NCBI RefSeq assembly: GCF_018448495.1
Contig: NZ_CP049902.1
Coordinates: forward strand, 3,038,001 to 3,102,000
Direction: 5' to 3'
DNA from: Psychrobacter sp. WY6
Lineage (GTDB): Bacteria > Pseudomonadota > Gammaproteobacteria > Pseudomonadales > Moraxellaceae
DNA length: 64,000 bases
Part shown: piece after piece, positions 36,841 through 40,791 of the stretch
Layout: each line of letters opens with the position of its first letter
Position numbering within the stretch: the stretch's first letter is position 1
Made by a program: the position numbers and the translations under genes
Notes under the pieces: model-generated
The model's input: the letters and a program-made list of their open reading frames with translations, nothing else
Told to the model about the DNA's origin: nothing
Database searches by the model: none

Positions 36841-37266
36841 TTACTTTTCAGATTTATCTAGATCAATAGACACAGAATTGATGCAATAGCGCATGCCTGT
36901 CGTCTCGCTTGGGCCGTCAGGGAAGACATGACCTAAATGTGCGCCGCAGTTACTACAGGTCACTTCTGTCCGCGTCATGCCAAGCGAATTATCTACATGC
37001 TCCTCTATAGCGCTGTTATCAACTCCTTGGTCAAAACTTGGCCAACCACAGCTGGCATCAAATTTATTGCTTGAGTCAAATAAGCTCGCACCGCAGCCTT
37101 TGCAGCGATAAATACCGTCGTCAGTCGCATCGTTATAGATGCCCGTAAATGGGCGTTCTGTACCCTTTTCACGCATCACGTGATATTCATCAGCACTCAA
37201 ACGCTCTTTCCAATCAGCTTCTGTTAATTGGCTGATTTCTTCTTGGCTAAGTTGATTGTCTTGCAT
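36841..37266 (-). CDS. msrB: Peptide-methionine (R)-S-oxide reductase MsrB
   Basis: An intact 141-residue MsrB. Zinc ligands Cys55, Cys58 ('CKGCG') and Cys104, Cys107 ('CSNCG') are present, and the catalytic Cys128 is in '[10 protein letters not shown]'. 'CGWPSF' and 'LGHVFPDGP' are further family motifs. It reduces methionine-R-sulfoxide in proteins using thioredoxin, in the cytoplasm. It is probably transcribed alone: 160 bases separate it from the peroxidase downstream. Confidence 0.95.
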
Positions 37267-37577
37267 AATGTATCCTTAATTTGGGTATGTATTATCTCAT
37301 CCATTAGCATTAGCTTTTATCTGCTATTAACTAACACTTTATCGCCATATTTTTAAAAACGATGGGCCTTATCTATTGTTTATCTATTCAATATTCAAGG
37401 CATACATTACAAGAAAACTATCATAAACAAGTGATGGCGTAAGGTATTGAAAAAGCTATGATAAAAAAATACAGCAAATTTTCTTAACATATCAATGAAT
37501 ACAGATTTAGCCATGATAATAACTCTCTGAAAGAAGTTTGATATCTAGTAGCGCAGAAAGGAGGCAACGATAATACC

Positions 37578-37666
37578 ACCAATGCAAGTTATTCTTGCAT
37601 TGGTAAATACATCTTCCTTAAAAACAGCTTGCATTGATACTGATAATGCAATAATATCTTGCATTA
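37578..37666. promoter_or_regulatory. Cluster of TTGCATT palindromic boxes upstream of the HTH-AlaA gene
   Basis: ACCAATGCAAG and CTTGCATTGGT form a perfect 11-bp inverted repeat at 37578-37604 (5-nt loop). A second dyad, TTGCATT...AATGCAA, lies at 37629-37651, and a further CTTGCATTA begins at 37659. The repeated word within 100 bases of a gene with an N-terminal DNA-binding domain suggests autoregulatory operators. Confidence 0.65.
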
Positions 37667-37731
37667 AGGCTTAATTAAAACAAATGCCTGCTTTCCTTCT
37701 CTCTATTACCAACTACTGAATAAAGGCTTGA

Positions 37732-39380
37732 ATGATTATGGCTGATGACAAAATAAAAGCACACAAGCCGAAAGACTGGTACAGCTACGTCGTGATAAAG
37801 GGCTGACTGCTGAGCAATTAGCGCAAGCCATGACCGCAGCAGGCGCAAAAGTCAGTCGCGGTGCTATCTCGAATTGGGAGCGTGGCACCAATGGCATTGT
37901 GTCATCTAAACTACCAACGCTAGCACACATTTTAGGCTGCAGCGAAGGCTATCTGTTACGCGGTGAACTAAAAAACGACAGTGATAATAATAAAGAGGTA
38001 AGTGAAAGCACTCATTCTCATAACAAAAATAGTCAAAACATGTCATTTGCTCAAACTGACAAGATACATGACTCCCAAATTAATCAAACAGCTACAACTC
38101 CTACTATAGATACAAACTCACAAAATAACCCTATGAGTGGTCACCCTATGAACACAATAAAAAAATCGGATAAATTACAAAATGTTTGCTACGACATTCG
38201 CGGCCCGCTATTGCAAACAGCCAATAAGATGGAAGCAGAAGGCAAACGTATATTAAAGCTGAACGTCGGTAACCCAGCCCCCTTTGGTTTAGAAGCCCCG
38301 CATGAGATTTTGCGCGATGTGGCGATGAACCTACCAGACGCGACCGGTTATTCCGACTCGCAAGGGATTTTTTCAGCGCGTAAAGCTGTCCTACAGTACT
38401 ATCAATCAAAGGGGTTGCTATCGGCAGTTGATGTCCGTGATGTCTATTTGGGCAACGGAGTTTCTGAGCTGATTGTAATGACCATGCAGGCTTTGATGAA
38501 TGATGGTGACGAAGTGCTTATCCCAATGCCAGACTACCCGCTTTGGACGGCAGCGGCGAACCTAGCTGGCGGCACAGCGGTACATTATCGCTGTAATGAA
38601 GACGACAATTGGCATCCTGATATCGAAGACATTAAATCTAAAATCACCTCTAAAACCAAGGGTATCGTGGTGATTAATCCTAATAATCCAACGGGTTCAC
38701 TTTATAGTGATGAATTACTGAAACAAATTATTGAGGTCGCTAAAGCGCATGATTTAATCATCATGGCCGATGAAATTTATGATCGTATTCTTTATGATGA
38801 TATGGTACACACCCCAATGAGCACCTTGACTGATGATGTGCTGGTACTCTCATACAATGGATTATCAAAATCGCATCGTATCGCGGGATTCCGCGCAGGT
38901 TGGATGATGGTATCTGGCAAAAAGCACCATGCCACTGACTTTATCGAAGGCTTGGACATGTTAGCGTCTATGCGCTTGTGTTCCAACGTCCAAGGTCAAT
39001 ACGCTATTCAAACCGCGATGGGCGGCTATCAAAGCATGAAAGAGCTCACGTCAGAGCGTGGGCGCTTATATAAGCAGCGTGAAATGGCCGTGTCACGACT
39101 TAATGCGATCAAAGGTATCTCTTGTACCATGCCACAAGGCGCGTTTTATTGCTTTCCAAAGATGGATCCTGATATTTACCCTATCGAAGATGATATGGCA
39201 TTTATGATGGATTTGCTTGTTGAAGAAAATGTCTTAATGGTGCAAGGAACAGGCTTTAACTGGGATAAGCCCGATCATTTCCGCTTGGTGTTTTTGCCAA
39301 ACTTACATGATTTAGAAGACGCCATGGACCGCTTAGATCGCTTCTTTGCCAAAAAGCGCAAACAATTTGGTACCGAATAA
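37732..39380 (+). CDS. XRE-type HTH fused to alanine aminotransferase AlaA (single frameshift)
   Basis: About 549 residues after one base is restored near 37768. ATG 37732 follows AAAGG. Residues ~10-75 form an XRE helix-turn-helix: 'AERLVQLRRDKGLTAEQLAQ', 'AGAKVSRGAISNWERGTNGI', 'LPTLAHILGCSEGYLLRGEL'. A ~75-residue polar Asn/Ser/Thr-rich linker follows. The C-terminal ~410 residues are AlaA-like: 'YDIRGPLLQTANKMEAEGKR', 'KLNVGNPAPFGLEAP', 'YLGNGVSELIVMTMQAL', 'INPNNPTGSLY', the PLP lysine in 'NGLSKSHRIAGFRAGW', and 'SMRLCSNVQGQYAIQTA'. E. coli AlaA transfers amino groups between glutamate and pyruvate and has no DNA-binding domain. An upstream operator cluster suggests autoregulation linked to alanine metabolism. 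Confidence 0.88.
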
Positions 39381-39444: not shown

Positions 39445-40310
39445 TTATAACAAGGACTGAGTTCTGTATTGCACAGGACTCAGTCCTTTTAATTTAAGTT
39501 GAATACGCTCATGATTATAATAATGTATATACTCATGAATCTGTTGTTCTAACTGCTCAATAGTCTTCGGTTTCTCAATATAAATCGTCTCGCACTTCAG
39601 CGTACCGAAGAACCCCTCTATCAGTGCATTATCTAAGCAGTTGCCTTTTCTGCTCATACTTTGCTTAATTCCATGCTGTTTAAGCGTCGTGCTAAACGGT
39701 TTCATTTGATAATGCCACCCTTGATCTGAATGCAGCATTAATCTCTTACCACGGCACGCCTTTGTCTTATCTAAAGCACTAGCTAGCATCTTACCAACTA
39801 AGTCATAAGTGGGTCTCTTTGAGAGCGTATAGCTGATGATCTCATTGTTATAACAATCGAGTATGGGTGATAAATACAGCTTATGATCACCCACCTTAAA
39901 CTCAGTAATATCGGTGAGCCAGCGTGTGTTCGGTTTATCTGCAGTAAACTGGCGCTTTAAATAGTTCTTTGCAATCTTACCTTGTTGTCCTTTATAAGAG
40001 CGGTACTTCTGACGTCTTATCTTGGCGCTAAGCTTCATGTTACGCATCAGCTTAGCGATGAGCTTGTGGTTGTAATGACTACCTAACTGCTTTAGAGCCT
40101 CAGTGATTCTGCGATAGCCATACCTGCCTTTGTGCTGATGATACAGCTTAGCAATACGCTGTTTTAATTCAGTGTATTTGTCATCACGCTCAAGTCTTGC
40201 TCTATGATAGTAAAAGACACTTTTGGGCATACCAGCGGCTTTAAGTAAGTCAGATAAACAGCAGCGCTCTCTTAGTCCTTCGATGAGCCTTGCTTTTTCA
40301 AAGCTTGTTT
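39445..40310 (-). CDS. IS3-family transposase OrfB
   Basis: The integrase-core half of an IS3 transposase. 'GRYGYRRITEALKQLG' precedes the DDE core 'WLTDITEFKVGD', 'LMLHSDQGWHYQM' and 'NALIEGFFGTLKCE'. The first in-frame ATG is at 40230, but coding continues upstream ('ARLIEGLRERCCLSDLLKAA') into the overlap with orfA, so it is normally made as an OrfAB fusion by -1 frameshifting at the A-run near 40300. No damage is seen in this half. Confidence 0.9.
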
Positions 40311-40791
40311 CTTCTTCTGTTTGAGCAAGGCATCTAGCTTTTTTAGGTAGGCGTTCTCCGCACGTAGATACTCATTCTCACGCTTAAGCTCTGCTAAGCT
40401 CTTTCATCATCTGGCTTGTCTGTGATAAATGGTTTGCTCATGGCGGTTCTACCTTTAGGTTTAGATACGAGTCCAGACATACCCTGTAGTCGATAAGCTT
40501 TGTGCCAATGACTAATGAGCGCCGGTGAGCTGATGTTAAACTTCAGTGCCACCTCAGATTGACTTAAATCTTCTTTAAGCATGGTCGTAATCACGTGATG
40601 TTTAAACTCACTGCTGTATTTGGCCTTACTTGTCTTGGCTTAATGGCATTTATGCCACCGCTTTGGTATTGCTTAACCCATTTGAGTACAAACTCTGGAT
40701 TGACGTTAAACTTCTTAGCGGTGGCGTGACTACTATGGCCTTGCCGATAGTATGCGATGACTTGCATCTTAAAGTCTAGATCGTAACGCAT
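40272..40791 (-). CDS. IS3-family transposase OrfA (frameshifted)
   Basis: The N-terminal frame (ATG 40791) has 'DFKMQVIAYYRQGHSSHATA' and a first helix-turn-helix. After a break near 40600 a second helix-turn-helix follows ('LSQSEVALKFNISSPALISH'). After another break near 40395 the leucine-zipper-like tail reads 'AELKRENEYLRAENAYLKKL' and ends at 40272. The two-HTH-plus-zipper layout is that of IS150-group OrfA. The two breaks make it non-functional as read, unless they are sequence errors. Confidence 0.8.

Follow-up and report, generated by a model that had tools for sequence, protein, structure and literature searches.

A putative self-controlled promoter for a helix-turn-helix alanine aminotransferase fusion in Psychrobacter, and its domain and operator counterparts in the family

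Introduction

Some metabolic enzymes carry a DNA-binding domain of their own, and these trigger enzymes of the PutA type act, in the accessible part of the source, on very few targets, the gene for the enzyme itself among them (PMC8249747). PutA, a proline dehydrogenase which represses putA and putP, would share with the protein described here both the union of an enzyme with a DNA-binding domain and the targeting of its own gene, and, as far as that part of the source reaches, it is by analogy the nearest model for the presumed autoregulation (PMC8249747). Our protein (HTH-AlaA) is unlike PutA in that the enzyme resembles the aminotransferase AlaA and the DNA-binding domain is of the XRE type, in that its own promoter is the only site found, and in that its relatives bear other domains and other operators.

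A second comparison is offered by the MocR/GabR regulators, which in the available portion of the report have an N-terminal DNA-binding domain on a class I aminotransferase fold and recognize multi-box operators (PMC5320631), a general plan that HTH-AlaA seems to share. The MocR proteins combine a GntR-type domain with an aminotransferase-like sensor, whereas HTH-AlaA joins an XRE-type domain to an almost true AlaA (4cvq); membership of the MocR/GabR group was considered and rejected, as no GntR-type domain was found with Pfam at the N-terminus.

A third relative is StbA of plasmid R388, which, in the portion of the report at hand, binds direct repeats of 9 bp, arranged in sets of five with 2 nt between repeats, that is, with an 11-bp period (PMC3098194). 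Fusions of two groups within the family (g9 and g15) resemble it in their domain (7pc1) and in direct repeats at the same period, and differ from it in the repeated word, AGCAA instead of TTGCATCAT, and in the fusion of the domain to an aminotransferase. The TTGCAT that the R388 word shares with our stretch of DNA was set aside as a coincidence, the domain encoded here matching XRE models and not StbA.

The N-terminal 125 residues of HTH-AlaA match the phage-type XRE repressors DicA (3.5e-08) and RstR (3.2e-05), in both cases under the curated cut-offs (33.3 vs 101 and 24.2 vs 80). To our knowledge, neither of these repressors has an enzyme domain. No description of AlaA joined to a domain that binds DNA was found in the open-licence literature, as represented by titles and abstract openings and among the matches listed; the class of trigger enzymes is known, and the AlaA version, together with an exchange of domains and operators within one family, did not appear in that literature and may perhaps be new.

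The gene and its protein

The window, by which we mean the whole stretch of 64,000 nucleotides that was analysed, contains the features collected in Table 1. Within a single frame the HTH_19 and HTH_3 models (31.4 vs a cut-off of 30.2, and 25.6 vs 23) and Aminotran_1_2 all exceed their gathering scores, so that one protein unites a metabolic enzyme and a DNA-binding domain. With E values up to 0.001 the N-terminus matches HTH_19, HTH_3 and HTH_31 only, and the PADLOC RmrA matches are restricted to residues 3-121. The nearest solved structure is E. coli AlaA (4cvq, E 6.9e-168), followed by 1xi9 (4.5e-84), and the NPNNPTG and DEIYD motifs, the SKS lysine and the C-terminal RLVFLP arginine, which we take to be the motifs of the PLP site and active site, are all in place. 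The NCBIfam equivalog cut-off for alanine aminotransferase was not reached among the best 25 of 82 families, the top model being NF006230 (342.5 vs 534 bits). A match to the protein is found in 100 of the 100 genomes of the genus, its own included.

Table 1. Features of the intergenic region and its flanking genes (window coordinates)
Feature	Position	Strand	Remarks
Divergent neighbour, SelR domain (msrB)	36841-37266	-	borders the 471-bp intergenic stretch
Distal dyad	37581-37601, inside 37578-37604		perfect 11-bp arms 37578-37588 / 37594-37604, 5-bp centre
Distal dyad core TGCAAGTTATTCTTGCA	37583-37599		in the genus mostly TGCAAG-N5-CTTGCA, spacer variable
Middle half site TTGCATT	37629-37635	+	likely -35 box: TTGCAT at 37629-37634
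Proximal dyad AATGCAATAATATCTTGCATT	37645-37665		core 37647-37663, 16/17 positions invariant in 97/97 aligned genus upstream regions
Likely -10 box TAATAT	37652-37657	+	in the spacer of the proximal dyad; presumed, not listed by the generic promoter scan
Probable transcription start	37664-37666	+	presumed, about 7 nt past the -10 box
Likely ribosome-binding site AAAGG	37722-37726	+	from sequence; similar AAAGG before the start codon in many relatives
XRE-HTH / AlaA-like aminotransferase fusion gene	37738-39380	+	open frame from 37749; start codon out of frame in the assembly
XRE-type helix-turn-helix domain	37770-37967	+	Pfam HTH_19 1.8e-07, HTH_3 1.3e-05, both above gathering score
Class I/II aminotransferase domain	38250-39329	+	Pfam Aminotran_1_2 1.2e-59

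The start of the gene had been placed at 37732 in the sequence-only reading that first pointed to this region. That ATG exists, and L004-L016 keep it together with the one at 37738; in more distant relatives, such as L017 and L022, only the latter is kept, and for this reason ATG 37738 is the likely start codon. It is out of frame in the assembly because, compared with the nearest relative (L004), the run of A at 37750-37753 lacks one base. The assembly has a completeness of 85.6% and consists of two contigs, and our guess is that the break in the frame is an assembly error, a real mutation being the alternative. Just downstream, on the opposite strand, there are IS3-like transposase genes at 39445-40791 (rve, with HTH_21 in the larger one).

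Repeated words and conserved dyads

Five copies of the word TTGCATT or its complement AATGCAA stand upstream of the gene, at 37581(-), 37595(+), 37629(+), 37645(-) and 37659(+), and the perfect 11-bp inverted repeat, the second dyad and the further half site that the sequence-only reading had built from this one word are all borne out by the sequence. The two dyads have the common form AATGCAA-N7-TTGCATT, with 64 bp from centre to centre. Just upstream of them lie three direct repeats similar to GCCATGATAATA (37455-37466, 37510-37521 and 37564-37575), spaced by 55 and 54 bp. Across the whole window the 7-mer TTGCATT occurs 10 times, against a shuffle mean of 28.6, and 5 of these 10 copies fall within 85 bp; in the 471-bp intergenic stretch its 5 copies compare with a mean of 0.34 and a maximum of 4 in 5000 shuffles. 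Mere repetition by chance in AT-rich intergenic DNA would draw some strength from the fact that in 73 of 1000 shuffles of the same stretch one 7-mer or another is present at least five times, so that the word count alone is only a moderate surprise; it is refuted by the conservation of the dyads throughout the genus, by the preferred gap of 7 and by the invariant core of the proximal dyad, and we give it practically no credence.

This conservation was followed in 100 Psychrobacter upstream regions, 99 of them distinct and three shorter than 250 bp, from species whose relatedness makes these counts, like those given below for the family, non-independent. Over the final 300 bp ahead of the HTH codons the exact dyad TGCAA-N7-TTGCA occurs twice in 81 regions, once in 18 and in 1 not at all, and if one mismatch is allowed 96 of the 100 have at least two dyads, while at least one exact dyad appears in 0.18% of dinucleotide shuffles. 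The gap of 7 accounts for 180 matches, each of the other gaps from 0 to 23 for 0 to 3, and the gap of 24 for 27. The proximal 17-mer core TGCAATAATATCTTGCA is present in 98 of the 100 regions, the exceptions being L031 and L095; one further region lacks sufficient flank, and in the 97 that have it the single position of the core that does vary is T in 95%, the flanks being far less conserved. The region with no dyad is L031, whose 200 bp would have covered the position of the proximal one; it lies at the contig end of G051, and there an unrelated sequence replaces the operator, by insertion or through misassembly. In four others (L081, L082, L083 and L097) an intact proximal dyad is found some 240-300 bp before the HTH codons, compared with the usual distance of about 110.

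The hexamer in the spacer of the proximal dyad is TAATAT in 93 of 98 regions and TAAAAT in 5, and 17 bp upstream of it the genus keeps TTG in 96 of 98 and the full TTGCA in 77 of 98. As 17 bp is the spacing of a -35/-10 pair, we take the operator and the promoter to be one and the same piece of DNA. Compared with the sigma-70 consensus the pair is weak; a generic promoter scan did not contain it, and listed TTAAAA-18-GATAAT at 37618-37647, with a number of sites not above that of shuffles. The pair formed by the half site and TAATAT is preferred to the scanned one because of its conservation. Homologous upstream regions retain the motif, and copies of the full dyad, as will be seen, are not scattered across the genome; the proposal of the sequence-only reading that these repeats are an operator is well supported.

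Proposed autoregulation

We infer that the dyads and the half site constitute the operator-promoter of the downstream gene, and that HTH-AlaA would bind there and repress its own promoter, a reading which the sequences compared here lead us to hold with a probability of roughly three in four. The sequence-only reading had not recognized that the downstream gene probably encodes the regulator. Aminotransferases of this class generally dimerize through the enzyme part, and inverted repeats are typical binding sites of XRE dimers. The fusion protein would therefore dimerize via its enzymatic moiety and bring two HTH domains into contact with TGCAA-N7-TTGCA; with the -10 box inside the proximal dyad and the -35 box in the half site, the bound protein could shut out RNA polymerase, the distal dyad would add occupancy, and the substrate or the state of the PLP might tune the repression. 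This would be a negative autoregulation of a single gene by the enzyme it encodes, that is, a trigger enzyme.

The sign of the effect is a guess, made because the proximal dyad overlies the -10 box. The same protein at the same site could instead activate its promoter, or set its level rather than shut it off, as might be supposed from the position of the distal dyad, on the upstream side of the -35 box and so at a place open to activators, and from promoter boxes that are poor in comparison with the consensus. Yet the best conserved of the dyads is the one around the -10 box, which the protein and the polymerase should not be able to occupy together, and we consider activation unlikely.

The distance between the dyads was also taken, in the sequence-only reading, as a sign of cooperative binding or looping, a suggestion that is not supported here. 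Over 97 regions of the genus it ranges from 44 to 92 bp, with 21 distinct values (64 bp in 34 regions), and no phasing with the 10.5-bp helical repeat was found in them (R=0.155, p about 0.60); of the periods tried (5.25, 9.5, 10, 10.5 and 11) only 9.5 gave a p of 0.03, uncorrected for five trials, on which we base no claim.

Nor did the idea of an operator code with other targets find support in the scan of the genome. In its 3.49 Mb the exact AATGCAA-N7-TTGCATT is found only in these two places, with 0 for the pattern read backward, and since the exact 21-mer has no other copy no wider regulon is indicated. The shorter TGCAA-N7-TTGCA occurs at 9 places, 2 of them at the aminotransferase gene, against 1 for the control pattern. 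The longest open frames over the other 7 sites are of 543, 399, 276, 261, 141, 104 and 44 codons (L103, L111, L104, L108, L107, L105 and L106, respectively), which puts 6 of the 7 inside frames of 104 to 543 codons; one or two of the sites may be intergenic. In the genomes of the genus WTGCAA-N7-TTGCAW appears 1 to 7 times (control, 0 to 6), mostly with two or fewer at the aminotransferase gene among the matches listed.

Domain and operator pairs in the family

The protein has a match at E up to 0.001, in some cases a weak one, in 148 of the 149 genomes of the family, and in the order (194 genomes) the matches from outside the family align, among those listed, only from query residue 88, behind the HTH. 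The N-terminus and the upstream region were read for 76 genes, which come from 75 genomes among the 108 of the family outside the genus. A script classified 69 of these genes, 22 with an XRE-type domain, 19 with a StbA-like one, 5 with a third type (g13), 4 with a fourth (g11) and 19 with no extra domain; the seven rows it left unclassified are L132, L134, L146, L147, L248, L256 and L281, of which L248 is unreadable and six are XRE by eye, one of them with the dyad.

Each of three types of operator follows one type of domain. Within the last 250 bp TGCAA-N7-TTGCA is found in 97 of the 100 genus regions, in 15 of the 22 other XRE fusions and in 0 of the 47 genes with another domain or none; AGCAA-N6-AGCAA in 17 of the 19 StbA-like fusions and 0 of 150 others; and ATAGG-N6-CCTAT in all 5 of the g13 fusions and 0 of 164 others. 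Genes without a fused domain have none of the three (0/19). The most frequent spacing of AGCAA in the StbA-like promoters is 11 bp (17 pairs), and words of the form G[TCA][AG]AGCA, present in two to four copies in 19 of the 19 genes with this domain, are absent from six domain-less genes of g15 and occur singly in three genes of other groups. A Fisher test gives p 3e-10, a value that covers the 69 classified rows only, ignores kinship and carries no weight as proof.

The StbA-like domain of g9 and g15 matches StbA of plasmid R388 (7pc1, E 8.2e-05), without reaching the NCBIfam StbA_2 cut-off (24.7 vs 100 bits), and for the StbA-like, g13 and g11 domains Pfam gives no match above cut-off. The model of the g13 domain has four helices, with pLDDT 86-91 over residues 1-60, and its fold search places HTH proteins on top (HigA, HipB and 1pra, the last presumably the 434 repressor), all with E above 1. 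In the g11 genes (L285, L286, L258 and L259) the enzyme is preceded by a domain of a fourth kind, whose model consists of strands followed by helices (mean pLDDT 64.5); no noteworthy fold match was found for it, and no operator that could be named in its promoters.

The principal result against a simple rule of one domain and one operator is the existence of XRE groups without the dyad: the exact form is missing from g7 (0/6), g8 (0/1), g14 (0/1) and g16 (0/1), and from 3 of the 19 genes of g10, so that with the six rows read by eye 16 of the 28 XRE fusions outside the genus possess it; one g7 gene has a dyad with one mismatch. These same XRE fusions of g7, g8, g14 and g16 could be adduced in favour of another regulator, acting in trans, as the owner of the site, the HTH of the aminotransferase then serving elsewhere or nowhere. 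A foreign regulator would nevertheless have to be reconciled with an exact dyad which in this genome stands at this gene only, and with three operator types that track three domain types; on the sequences compared we judge it decidedly improbable, and retain the reading in which the fusion protein is the one that would bind.

A tree of the aminotransferase domain was built from 41 rows (43 were tried, and G112 and G114 were dropped, the motif not having been found in them). In it the XRE rows form one group with weak support (41/77), and G13 and G11 carry a star. To account for the StbA-like label 4 changes are required, of which well-supported branches force 2 or more, and for the domain-less rows 5, of which 3 or more are forced; g13 is a supported clade among domain-less rows. 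The natural reading of these sequences would be that the StbA-like domain has been lost within g15. Our guess is that g15 corresponds to Acinetobacter and g10 to Moraxella.

In related bacteria the DNA-binding domain seems to have been exchanged for others, and each of these appears together with a docking site that suits it. We incline, with some reserve, to the broader view that within one family AlaA has captured at least three DNA-binding domains (XRE, StbA-like and a third, HTH-like one, perhaps also a fourth), each with a matching operator in its own promoter, that loss of the domain would have been accompanied by loss of the operator, and that autoregulation would be the selected trait, AlaA metering itself. 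Enzymes that regulate their own genes have so far been individual cases; in this family a single enzyme has seemingly come under the control of its own product on several occasions, each time through a different domain, so that the pairing of domain and operator can be read directly from genomes. The family would offer a small and manageable system in which to ask how feedback on the synthesis of an enzyme arises, how operator and binding domain evolve together, and why an alanine aminotransferase in particular would need such control, and the XRE and StbA-like domains gain clear candidates for native operators.

Outer arms of the distal dyad

The distal dyad extends beyond its inner words into outer arms that vary in a compensated manner. 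In 14 close relatives, which give 11 distinct rows, the inner words are fixed, while the outer arm changes on both sides: two-sided changes are seen in 5 of 13 pairs, and two-sided cells number 14, compared with 1 that is one-sided. Of 143 cells 16 are unpaired, 8 of these at the outermost pair. The count of two-sided cells was reached by 0 of 500 shuffles, and further pair types are not above shuffles. Over 96 regions the outward pairing of the distal dyad is 2.24, compared with 1.09 for swapped partners, and that of the proximal dyad 1.73, compared with 1.68.

Such covariation in close relatives might be that of RNA hairpins, in which case the dyads would be a leader attenuator or a minus-strand terminator rather than a site for a protein, and in fact a terminator-like stem of the minus strand is scored at the distal dyad and its flanks (1 vs 0.4 in shuffles). 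Several features oppose this: the likely transcription start would be downstream of both dyads; the run of T is interrupted (TATTATCGTT); the proximal dyad has no excess of pairing; and the inner words remain constant while the outer arms change, with the ratio of one-sided to two-sided cells just given. We find a role as RNA very improbable, and continue to regard the dyads as sites for a protein. Template switching at a near-palindrome, or the extrusion of a cruciform, demands that both sides of the arms change, and direct reading by a protein does not; the compensatory arms suggest, as a side lead, that one or the other process may have acted on the palindrome. When the distal dyads of L003-L016 are compared, the pairing in L012 extends 12 bp past TGCAA/TTGCA.
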